Shown: positions 2,987 to 54,330 of the stretch, one piece after another
How the letters are laid out: every line of letters starts with the position of its first letter
Position numbering within the stretch: position 1 is the stretch's first letter
Origin: Microcoleus vaginatus WJT46-NPBG5
Lineage (GTDB): Bacteria; Cyanobacteriota; Cyanobacteriia; Cyanobacteriales; Oscillatoriaceae
DNA: 64,000 nt
Direction of reading: 5' to 3'
Assembly: GCA_019359355.1 (NCBI GenBank)
Contig: JAHHHM010000022.1
Span: 1-64,000 of the forward strand
The notes under the pieces: model-generated
Databases searched by the model: none
What the model was told of the DNA's origin: nothing
What the model saw: only the letters and a program-made list of their open reading frames with translations
Made by a program: the position numbers and the translations under genes

Positions 2987-4654
2987 ATGAACTATCACAG
3001 TAATGCCGGCAGCAACGGATATCAGGCCGGTTTGAACTCTAAAAGTGAAAAAGATAGCGAGATGTGGGGTTTAGAAGCGCTGGGAATAAAAAACCTCGGC
3101 CATGTCTATCACAACCTGCCGGTGTCAAAGTTGGTAGAACACGCCTTGGCCCGTGGGGAAGGTGTTTTAGCCGGCAATGGGGCATTTTGCGTCAACACCG
3201 GCAAATACACAGGTCGTTCCCCCAACGATAAATTTATCGTCGTTGAACCCAGCAGCCGGGATGAAATTCACTGGAACAAGCTCAACGTTCCCATCTCCGA
3301 AGATAATTTTGGCCGGCTATACCGGCGCGTACTTTCCTATGTCCAAGGACGGGATCTCTATCTCTTCGATGGCTATGTAGGCGCAGATCCGAACTACCGC
3401 GTTGGTGTCAGAATTATTAACGAGCTAGCTTCCCAAAATTTATTCGCTCACCAGATGTTCCTCAGACCCACTCCTGAAGAACTCGAACAGCATCACGCCG
3501 ACTTCACAGTGATTGCAGTTCCCGGCTTGCACGGAGATCCCGAAGAGGATGGCATTAACTCAGAAGCCTTCATCGTGATTCACTTTGCCAAAAAGCTGGT
3601 GCTCATCGGGGGTTCCAAGTATGCCGGTGAGATCAAAAAGTCGGTATTCTCCTTGATGAACTACTTCATGACAAAGCGGGACGTGCTGCCCATGCACTGT
3701 TCTGCCAACATGGATTCAGAAGGTCATACAGCTTTATTCTTCGGCCTTTCAGGCACCGGCAAAACCACCCTCTCAGCCGATCCCAATCTGCATCTGATTG
3801 GAGACGATGAGCATGGCTGGTCAAGTGACGGCGTTTTCAACTTTGAAGGCGGCTGCTACGCCAAAACGATTAAACTTTCCCAAGAAAATGAGCCTCAGAT
3901 ATGGGATGCGATTCGATTTGGGGCGATCATGGAAAATGTCGTCCTCGATCCCCACACGCGCACACCCGACTATGATGACGGCAGCTTAACGGAAAATACC
4001 AGAGTTGCTTATCCCGTCGAGTATATTCCCAACTGTCTGATCCCCGGCATGGGCGGGCATCCCAAGACGGTGATTTTCTTAACAGCAGATGCGTTTGGTG
4101 TGTTGCCGCCCATTTCTAAGCTGACCAAAGAACAGGCGATGTATCATTTCATGTCTGGTTATACCAGCAAACTCGCCGGTACTGAACGCGGAGTTACAGA
4201 ACCTCAAGCAACCTTCTCAGCCTGTTTCGGCAAACCATTTTTACCGCTGTCGGCGGCAGTTTACGCGCAAATGTTGGGCGAAAGACTGGATAAACACGGT
4301 GCAGGGGTGTATTTAATCAACACCGGCTGGTCTGGTGGGCCTTACGGCGTTGGCAAGCGCATCCCCATTAAATACACACGCGCAATGGTGTCAGCCGCGC
4401 TGAATGGACATCTGGATCGCGTCCAGTTCCACCCCCACCCAATCTTTAAGATATTGGTGCCGGCAACCGTTCCAGGGGTTCCCAGTGAGATTTTAGATCC
4501 GAGAAATACTTGGAGTGATGGGGCAGCTTATGACCGGCAGGCGAATCAGCTAGCACAGTTGTTTGTGGAAAACTTTAAACAATATAAGAAAGCTTGCCAG
4601 GATATTGTCGAACCGGCAGCCTCCGCCGAGGCGTGTGCGCTAATGGAAGTGTGA
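2987..4654 (+). CDS. pckA: Phosphoenolpyruvate carboxykinase (ATP)
   Basis: Interconverts oxaloacetate plus ATP and phosphoenolpyruvate plus CO2 plus ADP in the cytosol, linking C4 acids to gluconeogenesis. The 555-residue product is close to the roughly 540 usual for the ATP-type enzyme. Visible signatures are TGRSPNDKF (about 73-81), the kinase-1a P-loop GLSGTGKTT (about 252-260) and the metal-binding motif LIGDDEHGW (about 270-278). The ATG at 2987 follows GGAG at 2974-2977 and is preferred; the frame is open 23 codons further upstream from a TTG, but that extension is not conserved-looking. A strong terminator follows at 4726-4754, so the gene is probably monocistronic. Confidence 0.93.
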
Positions 4655-6027
<1,373 letters not shown>

Positions 6028-47422: not shown

Positions 47423-48694
47423 TCATTCGGTCACCGGCCCTGAGTTGCGGGCTTCCCAGGCCAGGTTTAACAGCTGAGTCCAGCGCTTTTGCAACTGTTT
47501 CGGCGTGCACTTTAAGACTTGGGCAATTTCTTGTTCACTCTTTTGGGCACGCTTGAGGTCTAATAACTGCCGGTCTTGGGGGGTGAGTTTGTTCATAAAC
47601 ACGTCCCACTGTTGGGGAGGCATTCCCAAATTTTGATCTAAATCCGCACCCAACCACTGATGCACCAGTTTCCAATTGTGAGAGCGAGCAAACTTTTCAA
47701 CATGGTACTTAAAGCGCTGTTGCAGGTAGTCCCGCTGACGTGAACTAAGGTTGAGGACTTCATCAATCTCTTGAGCAGCCATGTCTTGAAGTTTTAACAC
47801 CAGGTAATCCACACAGTCCGATTGACCTTGAGATTCCAGATATTGTACGAGTTCCGAGACAACCCGATCCCGTAAAACGGCCTCAGCGGGGTCAATCGTT
47901 TCGGAGATCATCTGTTCTCGCACTTGTTGCGCGGCATGAGAGCGATTTTGCACTTCTGCATCTTCGCCTTTGGGGAATTCAATCGCTTGTTCAATATCAA
48001 GAACTGTCTCCGCCGGCTGGTTGTTGGCAAATCCTTGAGCACGCAGCACTACCAACTGTTGGGCACCGCGACCGGGCAAGTTGATCCGACGCTTGGCAAA
48101 GTGTTCCGTAAAAGCCATATACTCGGCTAGTTCCAACTGGGTGCGCGGCGTGTAATCTTCTGTGAGTTGGTTTTCCCGGCGGAAAGCTCGCAAAGATTCC
48201 ATATAAAAGCCTTGCAGAAAGTCTTCGATCAGGTTGTAACGACCTTGAAAGCCCAAGCGTGAGCGCAACGGAGCAACATGGCGATAAACCATTGAACTGA
48301 GGGTGCTGTGCAGTTCCACGCGGCCTTGTTTGGAACCGAGTTGATAATAATCTAGGCATTTTTGCATCCGGTGCCGTGCCAAGACTTGCTGCCAAGAGTG
48401 AACTTGACCGGAGTTTTGGATGCGGGCGCTTTTTTGGCAAATCCGCTCGATTTCCTTGGCAATCCGCATGGCGACTGCCGGCACGCTTCTGGAAGATGAT
48501 TGGATTTTTTCGTGCAGTTCCCGGACAAGCTGGTTGGCTAGGGTTTGGGTGTCGATTCCTCCTAGGGAATTCATTTCTAGGGGTTCTGACTCGTTGCCCT
48601 GCCGAGGAGCATTATTGGGAGTACCGGATGGTGCAGGGTTGATGCTGAAATTGTTGGAAGTTTGGTAGAAGGAATTTGCAAGTGGGGAGTTCAT
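47423..48694 (-). CDS. hetZ: HetZ-family cell differentiation protein
   Basis: A 423-residue protein closely resembling HetZ of Anabaena, which acts early in heterocyst differentiation together with HetR and HetP. Matching stretches include RIAKEIERICQKSARIQNSG (about 77-96), KCLDYYQLGSKQGRVELHST, LELAEYMAFTEHFAKRRINL, and QEIDEVLNLSSRQRDYLQQR. The C-terminal part (about 340-415) resembles a sigma-70 region 4-like helix-turn-helix (KSEQEIAQVLKCTPKQLQKR). The first 40 residues are disordered. Orthologues also occur in filamentous species without heterocysts. No patU, hetP or PatX-type RGSGR peptide gene was found beside it. A HetR-like site lies about 0.3 kb upstream. Confidence 0.85.
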   Translation of the reverse strand: MNSPLANSFYQTSNNFSINPAPSGTPNNAPRQGNESEPLEMNSLGGIDTQTLANQLVRELHEKIQSSSRSVPAVAMRIAKEIERICQKSARIQNSGQVHSWQQVLARHRMQKCLDYYQLGSKQGRVELHSTLSSMVYRHVAPLRSRLGFQGRYNLIEDFLQGFYMESLRAFRRENQLTEDYTPRTQLELAEYMAFTEHFAKRRINLPGRGAQQLVVLRAQGFANNQPAETVLDIEQAIEFPKGEDAEVQNRSHAAQQVREQMISETIDPAEAVLRDRVVSELVQYLESQGQSDCVDYLVLKLQDMAAQEIDEVLNLSSRQRDYLQQRFKYHVEKFARSHNWKLVHQWLGADLDQNLGMPPQQWDVFMNKLTPQDRQLLDLKRAQKSEQEIAQVLKCTPKQLQKRWTQLLNLAWEARNSGPVTE

Positions 48695-49411
48695 GATTTT
48701 GCCTCTGGGGACGCACCGTAGCGATAAGCAGTAATAAAGTCGTAGGCAGTTAGGGGAGGAAGCGTGTGAGGAGTGAGTTTCACCCGCCGTCTTAACTTTC
48801 TACTCTTCGACTGTATGAAACTGCCATTGTCTGCGGTGACGCCGCTGTGGCACTAACCCAACCTATGCGATATCGAGTTGCCACCCTCGAAAGTAACTGT
48901 TTGCCGGCCTTATACGGATATCCGAAATCCCTCTCGTTTCCAGGGGCGCAAACCCTTGCTGGATAATCACTCTCTGCCATAAAGACTGCTTGCAAACCAG
49001 TTAGCTAGGTGGGGGGTGTCACCCCTCAGTGTAGTGGACGATTCCCTAACTGGTCTACGTTCCCTAAACCGGCACAGCAACTGTCACATTTATTGTGGGG
49101 ATTCAAAAAGGTCATTGTAGTGATTGAATTTGGCCGGTCAGCTTCCATGAAAAAAGCCTGTAGATTCAATCATCTAGGAGTTGGAGTTTGCTCGTCTTTC
49201 TGCGTCGCCGGCGCTCTCCAACTGTGTCTGGCTTGAGCCTTAGTATCGCTGAATACAAAGCTTCTCTTCCTTCTGTTGACCCACCCATCAGGATATCAAG
49301 CAAAGAAGTAAGTCCACAGTCCTGAGCAAGACAGTGGCAGAGTAAAAGTTTTTAGGGGTGAGTGCTGAGTGGGATGGAAGGTGGGGTGAAGGGAAAAAAG
49401 CCCCATATTCC
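48695..49411. other. Long hetZ upstream region
   Basis: About 715 bases between hetZ and the TsaC-like gene. It contains a HetR-like operator (49008-49030) and a CGGATATCCG palindrome (48915-48924). Open frames at 48792-48995 (minus) and 49009-49236 (plus) have no family features. A long leader is expected for hetZ. Confidence 0.5.
49008..49030 (-). promoter_or_regulatory. HetR-like operator upstream of hetZ
   Basis: On the minus strand the site reads GAGGGGT-GAC-ACCCCCC within 49027-49011. The known HetR target upstream of hetP and hetZ in Anabaena has the core GAGGGGT-N3-ACCCCTC (from memory). The first arm matches fully and the second at six of seven positions. The centre GGGGTGTCACCCC (49013-49025) is a perfect palindrome. 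It lies about 314-336 bases before the hetZ start. Confidence 0.6.
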
Positions 49412-50074
49412 CTATTCGCTGACGCCTGATACCCAAGTCGCTACGGCTTGCCATCCTAAACCTTGTCGCACAACCACGGCTTCTGGGCCGGTTAAATCTA
49501 AAATGGTGGAAACCTGATATCCTGGCTCTTGGCCACTGTCCACGATCACATCGACTAATTTGTCTAGCCGGTCAAACAGTTCTGCCCGCCCAGGGGGGTT
49601 GTCGAGCGCCGGCTTTGTTTCATCATCATTCAGCAAGTGAGCTGAGGTGGAAATGATAGGATTACCCAGCGACTGTAACAACGACTGACACACTGCATGC
49701 TCAGGAACCCGAATGCCGGTGGTTTTCCGCTTGGGGTTCATCACGAGCTTGGGCACCAATTTGGTTGCCGGCATCAAGAATGTGTAAGTTCCGGGTATCA
49801 AATGCTTCATGAGGCGATAAGCTTCATTTGTCACCACCGCGTAGTGCGCCACATTCGAGAGGGAAGGACACAGGAAGGTGAGGGGCTTGTCGTTGGATAG
49901 CTGCTTGATGCGTCGCACACGTTCTACTGCTGCCTTAACGTTGAGGTCGCAACCAATGGCATACACTGTATCGGTGGGATATAGCATGACTGCTCCATTC
50001 CGAAGCGCATCCTTAATCTCCTCGATTTTGCGTGCTTGGGGTGTGTCGGGATGAATTTCGTAAAGAGTAGCCAT
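49412..50074 (-). CDS. TsaC/Sua5/YciO-family protein (threonylcarbamoyl-AMP synthase-like)
   Basis: A 220-residue YrdC-fold protein. Family motifs are LRNGAVMLYPTDTVYAIGCD (about 24-43), RIKQLSNDKPLTFLC, GTYTFLMPATK, RKTTGIRVPEH and NPIISTSAHL. TsaC makes threonylcarbamoyl-AMP for the t6A base in tRNA. The sequence KPLTFLCPSLSN and the overall form are nearer to YciO-like paralogues, so the activity is not certain. The ATG at 50074 is chosen; 19 further in-frame codons would be translated from a heptamer repeat and are rejected. Divergent from larC by only 56 bases. Confidence 0.85.
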   Translation of the reverse strand: MATLYEIHPDTPQARKIEEIKDALRNGAVMLYPTDTVYAIGCDLNVKAAVERVRRIKQLSNDKPLTFLCPSLSNVAHYAVVTNEAYRLMKHLIPGTYTFLMPATKLVPKLVMNPKRKTTGIRVPEHAVCQSLLQSLGNPIISTSAHLLNDDETKPALDNPPGRAELFDRLDKLVDVIVDSGQEPGYQVSTILDLTGPEAVVVRQGLGWQAVATWVSGVSE

Positions 50075-51739: not shown

Positions 51740-52108
51740 TTACTGCCGGTCGGACTTGGTAGGAGTTCTTGTGCCAGGAGCGCTGGGGTTATCAGGATTC
51801 AGCGTTTCTTCAGCATTCTGCTTGATCACTTTGGGGATATTCTTGCCCAAATTCTTAAGGTTTTTTAGGCCGGTGTCACCGATTTTGTCGCTATTGATAT
51901 CTTCGGCCTTGTCTTGAATTTTCTTGATAGTACCGCTGTCTACTTGCTCAGCCGAAGCATCGGTACGATTGAGTAATGGAACAGCTTGCGCTTGAATATC
52001 GTTGCCGATGCCAAAAGAAGAACTCACAAAAATTGTAACGGCTGCCAAAACAACCGTGACGATTTGACGCAAGCGAATGTTTTGTATCCAAGAAATTAAT
52101 CGATTCAT
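51740..52108 (-). CDS. Exported paralogue 1 of a three-gene family (probably DUF6658)
   Basis: A 122-residue protein. The N-terminus MNRLISWIQNIRLRQIVTVV and the following hydrophobic stretch match the starts of the next two genes. A likely signal cleavage follows AQA (about residue 41). Then come LLNRTDASAEQ (the NRT motif shared by the family) and a charged helical tail (IKKIQDKAEDINSDKIG, NLKNLGKNIPKVIKQ). The ATG at 52108 has AGGAG upstream. Function unknown; an envelope or stress role is inferred from the paralogues. Confidence 0.75.
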   Translation of the reverse strand: MNRLISWIQNIRLRQIVTVVLAAVTIFVSSSFGIGNDIQAQAVPLLNRTDASAEQVDSGTIKKIQDKAEDINSDKIGDTGLKNLKNLGKNIPKVIKQNAEETLNPDNPSAPGTRTPTKSDRQ

Positions 52109-52583
52109 GGGGTTTCTCCTAATAAGGTTTGTTAGATTTAGAGAGAAGGCTCTTTGACTCAACTCAACTCTTTTTTCTTATTTTATTTAAGCATAATTTT
52201 AAAAGAATTGCATCTTTAATTAGAAGTTTTAGGGGATAAAATTTTCTCTTCTATTTCATTAATTTCTAACTTAAGCTATTACCCGGATAGCCATTTACAA
52301 AGGGTTTTTATGGGGTTGCTTATCTTTAGGTTAAATCTTAAAATTCCCAGCTTAATAGTTAGCAAATTTTTATTTATAAAACTTTTTTCAAGTTTTTCTG
52401 CTTACCGAGTTATGCCGGCCTCTTATTTTTACATAATACCGACTGAAGACAATCAGCGGCTTTAAGTTTTCAACCCAGGCAAAACAATGTGAAAAAATCT
52501 CAGGCAAGTTTGGATAATCACTAGGCAAACTTGCCTGTTCCGGAAGGAGATTTTTTATTGTGCTCGTTAATTAATCGAGTTAA
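52109..52583. other. Intergenic region between exported paralogues 1 and 2
   Basis: About 475 bases, strongly AT-rich from 52160 to 52400. It contains the terminator of paralogue 2 (52490-52537) and should contain the promoter of paralogue 1. Confidence 0.5.
52490..52537 (-). terminator. Intrinsic terminator of exported paralogue 2
   Basis: A 12-bp perfect stem (52501-52512 with 52526-52537). On the minus strand it is followed by AGATTTTTTC. Confidence 0.88.
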
Positions 52584-53240
52584 TTAATCGAGATTGTCAG
52601 CAGCTTTTTCTACGGCTTGCTTGGTATTAGAAACGTCTTCGCTGACTTTAGATTTGACACCACTAGCAGCCTTGTCAGCCGCTTGCTTGGTATTAGAAAC
52701 GTCTTCACTGACTTTGGACTTAACCTTGCTGGCAGTCTTGTCAGCCGCTTCCTTGCTTCCATCAAGGGCGTCTTGAGTATTTTCTTTTAAATTCTCTGTA
52801 CCCTTTTGAGTTCTTTCAGCGAAACCTTCAGCATTACGCTGAACCCTATTGACGGCCTTGTCAGCGCCTTCTTTCACATTCTCGGCTGCCTCTGGCGCAT
52901 CATTAACCGCACGTCTGATCGCTTCTGCGGGATTGCCGGTTCTGTTCTTTATGTTCTGCTGAGCATTGTCCACCAAACCTTTGGCTTTGGCGTCGGCTGC
53001 GGTTGGATCTCTTCTGGGATCAGTATCGCGGTACTCGTTCATGCCGCCTTGGTATTCATTCCCCATCACCTGATCAGGAACTTCTTCCCGGATTTTGTCG
53101 GCAGTGTTGCCACTGTCGCCAAAGCCGAAGATTCCCGCGTTAGCCGCAGGCATCGTAACAAATACCATCAGGCCGGCTAAAAACACACTAAAAATGTGGC
53201 TTAGTCGCAGGCTTTTTACGAATGCAATCACTTTCTTCAT
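52584..53240 (-). CDS. Exported paralogue 2, LEA-like repeats (probably DUF6658)
   Basis: A 218-residue protein. The start MKKVIAFVKSLRLSHIFSVF is followed by a signal peptide with likely cleavage after ANA (about residue 36). Residues about 95-218 are amphipathic, Lys/Ala/Glu-rich and cysteine-free, like LEA group 3 desiccation proteins. The end holds two 22-residue repeats with the core KVKSKVSEDVSNTKQAADKA. The NRTGNPAEAIRRA segment corresponds to the NRTD motif of its paralogues. The ATG at 53240 has GGAG nine bases upstream. A role in envelope protection during drying or salt stress is inference. Confidence 0.78.
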   Translation of the reverse strand: MKKVIAFVKSLRLSHIFSVFLAGLMVFVTMPAANAGIFGFGDSGNTADKIREEVPDQVMGNEYQGGMNEYRDTDPRRDPTAADAKAKGLVDNAQQNIKNRTGNPAEAIRRAVNDAPEAAENVKEGADKAVNRVQRNAEGFAERTQKGTENLKENTQDALDGSKEAADKTASKVKSKVSEDVSNTKQAADKAASGVKSKVSEDVSNTKQAVEKAADNLD

Positions 53241-53688
53241 AGACATACTCCGTTGTTGAGGTTGATCGAATCAAACCGCTTTAGAATCATCTCTATCGCG
53301 GTATTATTTACTAACTTTGTACTAATTTTGTGGTAAAAGGCTCTCTGTCCCTTACACCTCTCAAGCATAATGTTGCGAGTGTGTGCGCTGCCTCTATCGG
53401 AAGTCACATTCTTGCCGGCGACTCGATTTAGCTTTGGTGTGACGCTAAAAAGCACTGAAGATGCACACCCCAGTTTTAGGCCAAATTCAGCTTGGGGATC
53501 AGCGCATAAATGCGCGGCGGACGCAGATTACACCTATAACACCGGCACCTTCGCCTTCTCAATGCCACATCAAGCGCCTACCGAAAATAGCAAGCGAAGC
53601 AACTAAAAGTAGAGAAACCCGTTTTGTAAAAAAAACGGGTTCCTTGCATTCACTTCCGGTTGCTGAGATAAACAAACGAGATGATTGC
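53241..53688. other. Intergenic region between exported paralogues 2 and 3
   Basis: About 450 bases without a supported gene. A hairpin at 53616-53641 probably ends the paralogue 3 transcript. The promoter of paralogue 2 is expected near 53260-53340, which is AT-rich. Confidence 0.45.
53616..53641 (-). terminator. Probable terminator of exported paralogue 3
   Basis: AACCCGTTTT (53616-53625) pairs perfectly with AAAACGGGTT (53632-53641). The T-run on the minus strand is short (TTTCTCT), so strength is uncertain. Confidence 0.6.
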
Positions 53689-54330
53689 TTACCTTGCCGG
53701 CGATTTATATTCCTTTGGGGCTGTTTTGGTTGCTGAGTAGGAATTACCAGTCACCTTCTCTATACCCCCCATCACAGGCGATTTGGGTTGCATTTCAGCG
53801 CCGCTAGCCGATTCTTCGATACCATCTTTAATGAATTGAGAGGCATCTTTAAACGTTGCACCAACTCTCTCTAAAATCTTGGCATCTGGATCGGTGCGGT
53901 TAATGATGGGTTGAGACTTTGCAGGAATCTGAGGGGCTTCTAGCAGTGATTGATCTCCGCCCAGTTCTTTGTCAAACTTATCGGTTTCAAGGGGTTCAGA
54001 GCCGGGGTAGAGTAACCTAGAGGCATTGCTTTCGCTATTGCTGACAGCGATCAGTCGATCCAGTTGAGGCAGATCGGCTCGATCGCGATCAGATTTGACT
54101 GGAGTATTCACTTTCGGGTCAGTGGACATCTTGAAGTTACTAGCATTATCCCCACCACCCTTGTGCGGATTATTTTGGCCACCAGCTTGAACCGGCGGAT
54201 TCATTGGACGAGCGCCTGTCGCGTCGCCGGCGTTACAAGCGGTGCTAGTCAGCAGCAGCACGCCTGCAAAAAATGCGGTCAAAATTTGAACGAACCGCAG
54301 TTTTTTAAAAAAAGCAGTTAACTTTTTCAC
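53689..54330 (-). CDS. Exported paralogue 3, lipoprotein (probably DUF6658)
   Basis: A 213-residue protein. The start MKKLTAFFKKLRFVQILTAF and the next hydrophobic residues match the other two paralogues. The signal ends in a lipobox-like LTSTAC (Cys32), so this member is probably lipid-anchored. A Gly/Asn/Pro-rich stretch (ARPMNPPVQAGGQNNPHKGG) follows, then IINRTDPDAKILERVGATFK with the shared NRTD motif. The start is a GTG at 54330 with a GGAAG upstream. Function unknown. Confidence 0.75.
   Translation of the reverse strand: MKKLTAFFKKLRFVQILTAFFAGVLLLTSTACNAGDATGARPMNPPVQAGGQNNPHKGGGDNASNFKMSTDPKVNTPVKSDRDRADLPQLDRLIAVSNSESNASRLLYPGSEPLETDKFDKELGGDQSLLEAPQIPAKSQPIINRTDPDAKILERVGATFKDASQFIKDGIEESASGAEMQPKSPVMGGIEKVTGNSYSATKTAPKEYKSPAR

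Follow-up and report, generated by a model that had tools for sequence, protein, structure and literature searches.

HetR is the master regulator of heterocysts, which are nitrogen-fixing cells. In the 64-kb cyanobacterial window considered here (the whole stretch of DNA that was analyzed), the initial annotation recorded a HetR-like palindrome upstream of a gene that it named hetZ, concluded that the HetR-HetZ link is present, and proposed that the site bears on an ancestral role of the circuit if the organism does not form heterocysts. The locus thus raises three questions: whether the palindrome is a site for HetR, which gene it would control, and whether the arrangement is older than heterocysts.

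The palindrome and the gene behind it

The palindrome is found on the minus strand at 49027..49011 and reads GAGGGGTGACACCCCCC, which is one base off the consensus GAGGGGTN3ACCCCTC (one mismatch in 14 specified bases). Its centre, GGGGTG-A-CACCCC, forms a perfect 6+1+6 palindrome, and the site is located 317-333 bp upstream of the ATG at position 48694; the sequence, symmetry, coordinates and distance to the gene reported in the initial annotation all hold. When the consensus was searched with up to one mismatch, this site was the single match in the window. The recognition core GGGN5CCC, which is indispensable for HetR binding (PMC4649674), is present as GGG-TGACA-CCC. Furthermore, a comparison with the crystallised HetR site gcGAGGGGTctaACCCCTCat revealed a single difference in the arms, t18 to c, at a base for which no contact has been reported (PMC4649674). 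The features of the locus are the following:

47423..48694, minus strand: HetZ-related protein gene, 423 aa, start codon ATG at 48694, assigned by profile scores, tree and alignment
48695..49411, minus strand: intergenic promoter region of 717 bp between the tsaC/sua5-like gene and HetZ-related, which houses the operator
49010..49028, minus strand: HetR-type operator in its 19-bp form, TGAGGGGTGACACCCCCCA, with the 17-bp core at 49011-49027; it fits GGGN5CCC and is kept in 6/7 family loci
49243..49256, minus strand: GTATTCAGCGATAC, matching GTAN8TAC, the consensus for NtcA; located within this promoter region and kept in the genus only
49412..50071, minus strand: L-threonylcarbamoyladenylate synthase gene (TIGR00057), the upstream neighbour, also found as the neighbour in relative G005

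The NtcA-like sequence may be a chance match, as by our own estimate about 0.2 such matches are expected in 717 bp. No terminator-like site was found in the 717-bp region and no DIF1 motif was found upstream of HetZ-related. As recorded previously, the gap upstream of HetZ-related holds no RGSGR peptide gene, but such a gene, patX, is present elsewhere in the genome.

The name hetZ was not borne out for the gene behind the operator. Its product scored 664.5 bits against the HetZ-related model NF037964, above the cut-off of 612, and 513.6 bits against the HetZ model NF037963, under the curated cut-off of 550. In a quick tree, HetZ-related proteins formed one clade with 100% support, with the members of the Oscillatoria princeps/PCC 10802 family, to which the genome belongs, grouped inside. 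Because the gene falls on the HetZ-related side by both profile and tree, the identification as hetZ was ruled out and the label needs correction to HetZ-related. The ATG at 48694 is the right start codon, since the N-terminus MNSPLANSF is kept across the family in the alignment. The next gene downstream is on the opposite strand, and patU thus does not follow directly. The genome carries three genes of the HetZ superfamily: HetZ-related in the window, true HetZ on contig C41 (662.5 bits) and HetZ-related 2 on contig C16. True hetZ is followed by an overlapping 337-aa open reading frame at the place where patU is expected, and this frame had no NCBIfam model match. A literature search to which key subscription papers were inaccessible retrieved no paper on HetZ-related, and a published mention is possible.

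Elsewhere in the window, at 51740-54330 on the minus strand, three neighbouring genes encode small proteins (140, 220 and 213 aa) whose hydrophobic N-termini resemble one another; they may represent a tandem family encoding secreted proteins.

HetR in the host genome and conservation of the operator

The same genome encodes HetR as a single copy (contig C6; 573 bits, cut-off 489), in which the DNA-contact residues Arg62, His69, Glu71, Lys73, Arg74 and Lys76 are all retained. The patX gene, encoding 60 aa (...HRGSGRVGG), occupies positions 85531-85713 of the same contig (locus L028) and ends about 650 bp before hetR; a DIF1 motif, TCCGGA, precedes its start by 61 bp (-61). We found no nifH over the cut-off in the genome, which is 99.6% complete (best match 220 bits, cut-off 394), and most likely, therefore, the host is a filamentous cyanobacterium that does not fix nitrogen. 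The condition set in the initial annotation, that the organism does not form heterocysts, is likewise most likely true. The nearest named relatives in the search were Oscillatoria princeps RMCB-10 and Oscillatoria sp. PCC 10802, with 80% identity in HetZ-related. The role of HetR in filamentous cyanobacteria that lack heterocysts has been called a mystery (PMC11298460).

Conservation among close relatives, proposed earlier as a check on the site, was observed: an operator occupies the equivalent position, some 290-340 bp upstream of the ATG, in six of the seven HetZ-related loci of the Oscillatoria princeps/PCC 10802 family (G000, G001, G002, G003, G005 and G006), which represent three genera. 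Two of these six operators contain one mismatch (TAGGGGT...). The arms are kept while the spacer varies (GAC, AAA, GTT, GTG and CTA; GTT and GTG are the N3 of TAGGGGTGTTACCCC and TAGGGGTGTGACCCC). The seventh locus, G004, has no operator at that place and carries GGGGGGCTACTCCCCCC some 200 bp further upstream. Little of the intergenic region can be aligned between genera apart from blocks near the start codon, the operator itself, which comes out slightly shifted in the alignment, and, immediately preceding the operator, a sequence resembling GACCAGTT..GGAA.TGTC. Outside the family, none of 77 HetZ-related upstream regions contained a sequence with fewer than three mismatches to the palindrome, which is no better than the control pattern, and the loose GGGN5CCC occurred before HetZ-related at about chance frequency by our own estimate.

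The match to the known site, the presence of HetR with its contact residues and the conservation within the family argue for the HetR-type operator predicted initially. We consider it likely that the palindrome is bound by HetR and puts HetZ-related under its control as part of a regulon of about nine strict sites. A HetR dimer would engage the palindrome via two HTH motifs, one per GGG/CCC half, and the transcription of HetZ-related would be placed under HetR. The RGSGR peptide derived from PatX, whose gene is located 5′ of hetR, would set the activity of HetR by lifting it off the DNA, and by analogy with Anabaena hetZ and hetP, activation of HetZ-related would be the more likely sign. The operator would then belong to a HetR regulon operating in a non-diazotrophic filamentous cyanobacterium.

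Origin of the site and other readings of the palindrome

The site could also be a HetR-HetZ link inherited from before heterocysts. In support of this, related filamentous genomes contain HetR, HetZ and HetZ-related together, and HetR-PatX is regarded as a pair older than heterocysts (PMC12756182). To follow the site across lineages, we used the published hetZ site, GAGGGTC(A/T)AGCCCAGCAG, as quoted in PMC4192349, as a positive control. Of 12 genomes chosen as Nostocales, 8 carry it upstream of true hetZ, between -531 and -546 relative to the profile start, and G041 has it there as well; HetZ-related genes of the same Nostocales genomes have no such site upstream. Conversely, true hetZ of the Oscillatoria princeps/PCC 10802 family, including the copy on C41, is preceded by neither the Nostocales hetZ site nor the strict palindrome; the loose GGGN5CCC was present before it only in G005, G006 and G007. 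These distributions suggest that HetR acts on different HetZ paralogues, on hetZ in Nostocales and on HetZ-related in the Oscillatoria family, which favours a lineage-specific link over an ancestral relic. The simplest account is that the family acquired the site before HetZ-related at its base and that the site then moved or was lost in G004; operator loss in all other lineages is possible but less simple. An ancestral circuit would need this gain at the base of the family or loss everywhere else, and it is unlikely on this account. As only one family has the operator before HetZ-related and all others lack it there, the site provides no evidence of an ancestral HetR-HetZ link, and the ancestral role suggested initially is not supported. 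The claim that the HetR-HetZ link is present here stands in part: a HetR-type operator exists in a genome with HetR, but it is not the Anabaena link as such, given that it precedes a paralogue and that hetZ on C41 lacks the site.

We then asked how the palindrome is distributed in relation to HetR. In the 6.46-Mb genome, GRGGGGTN3ACCCCYC yielded nine perfect sites and the reversed control pattern, by which the chance level was judged instead of by shuffles, yielded none; several of the nine sites are nearest to gene 3′ ends. Among 60 related genomes, the 34 with HetR contained 85 perfect sites (control 16), while the 26 without HetR contained five (control 7), four of them in one fragmented assembly, G015, in which hetR was not found, possibly owing to an assembly gap. 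At least one site was present in 26 of the 34 HetR-positive genomes versus 2 of the 26 HetR-negative ones (Fisher p = 6.5e-8, not corrected for relatedness). Outside the search pattern, the base at +1 is A in 85% of the flanks (T on the other side; 82 distinct sites), which extends the consensus to TGAGGGGTN3ACCCCTCA. Hexamers like TATAAT were enriched at 3-11 bases behind the sites compared with greater distances. The case for a -10 box at a fixed distance behind the operators was weak, given the AT-richness near the sites and the duplicated units, and no -10 element was conserved at a constant spacing across all family members.

A different regulator that occurs in the same filamentous lineages and recognizes the same site might account for this distribution, as phylogeny is linked both to the presence of HetR and to the number of palindromes. 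G015, with four sites and no hetR found, would fit such a regulator, and so would the small-RNA units of genus g2 described below, in which the repeat has another spacing. However, all positions contacted in the crystallised HetR-DNA complex are matched and the contact residues of HetR are unchanged, and we regard a second regulator as improbable. We judge it still harder to see in the palindrome a small dispersed repeat or an RNA hairpin that serves in termination or processing. In favour of these readings, a stem of 7 bp closed by a 3-nt loop is possible for GAGGGGT/ACCCCYC, some sites adjoin gene 3′ ends, and G009 has six near-identical copies. Nevertheless, the promoter region contains no T-run and no terminator was called there, the flanks vary by site beyond the extended TGA...TCA, the spacer varies freely, and site enrichment tracks HetR, which makes this reading very unlikely. 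Chance is a negligible explanation even for a short, GC-rich motif, in view of nine exact sites versus zero for the control and of conservation in six genomes of three genera.

It should be noted that the number of palindromes varies among relatives. At up to one mismatch, G003 and G006 (Oscillatoria princeps RMCB-10 and PCC 10802) contain 46 and 30 palindromes, with 13 and 8 for the control, and the putative HetR regulon may therefore be larger in that genus. In G009, six of seven perfect sites have the spacer GAA/TTC and five of the six are near contig ends; here a repeat element carrying the palindrome is likely.

Further candidate targets and comparison with known systems

Several other operators recur in the genus of the window. 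One is located 81-82 bp before a gene for a Coq4-domain protein (on contig C14 in this genome); the identification of this target as hetP was rejected, as it matches the Coq4 domain only and no NCBIfam model. Another precedes a pentapeptide-repeat gene of the Alr5209 family by 111-114 bp. In this genome it is the perfect operator GAGGGGTGTCACCCCTC at C10:67176-67192, 3.2 kb past the end of the window and 114 bp before the gene; G001, G003 and G004 also have a site before this gene, the last two at other distances. Further operators are located between the genes for a 195-aa protein of unknown function and an alpha/beta hydrolase, an arrangement shared with G004, in the gatB-argJ gap, where the site has one mismatch in this genome, and 154 bp before a gene for a protein with a cNMP-binding domain.

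Behind purD, contig C24 (locus L022) carries a tandem array at 4362-4960 consisting of three 157-bp units and one degenerate unit. In each of the three exact units, a strict HetR-type operator is accompanied by a -10-like TANANT hexamer and by a stretch of about 60 nt that ends in a terminator; we take this stretch as a putative small RNA with an intrinsic terminator. Among the 60 genomes, the stretch, GATGCACCCTGATGGA..GCCCAG, was found in 7 of the 8 family members and nowhere else. A search of seven loci around HetR-type operators, the array included, against Rfam returned no match, and no DIF1 motif was seen in the C24 units. In these units the operator takes up roughly the position expected for a -35 box, which is compatible with repression as well as with activation in which that box is missing. 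In genus g2, the small-RNA units contain an inverted repeat with other spacing, GGGGTGTN6ACACCCC, and this difference calls for caution.

The HetR sites before Anabaena hetP and hetZ, the HetR-PatX pair and the unknown role of HetR in non-heterocystous filaments are already published. The present analysis provides a short list of strict, conserved operators as candidate direct HetR targets in one non-heterocystous lineage, and suggests that the best-known downstream HetR link falls on another HetZ paralogue in that lineage. It is conceivable, although we advance it tentatively, that the HetR network has been rewired, with hetZ as the target in heterocyst formers and with HetZ-related, the Coq4-domain and pentapeptide-repeat genes and the small-RNA array as targets here; HetR and PatX might then govern a complete regulon unrelated to nitrogen fixation, serving for example filament breakage or hormogonia.

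Among known systems, the hetP site of Anabaena PCC 7120 (GAGGGGTCTAACCCCTC) resembles the window operator in its arms, 3-nt spacer and GGGN5CCC core, and a 17-mer identical to it occurs in the relatives G005, G016 and G043 and at the C14 site of this genome. It differs from the window operator in one arm (CCCCTC versus CCCCCC) and in the spacer (CTA versus GAC), and it is a HetZ paralogue that stands behind the window operator. The Nostocales hetZ site (GGGTCTAGCCCAGCA) likewise represents HetR input on a gene of the HetZ superfamily, several hundred bp from the start codon; that site, however, is imperfect and asymmetric and belongs to true hetZ, while the window operator is a near-perfect palindrome on HetZ-related. 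Finally, NsiR1 of Nostoc is a HetR-dependent tandem array of small RNAs with DIF1 promoters, in 12 copies (PMC9045159). The C24 array has a similar layout, in that tandem units of about 60 nt, which in C24 end in terminators, are linked to HetR, for C24 putatively. In contrast to NsiR1, which is located before hetF, it lies behind purD and carries HetR-type operators with no DIF1 motif seen.
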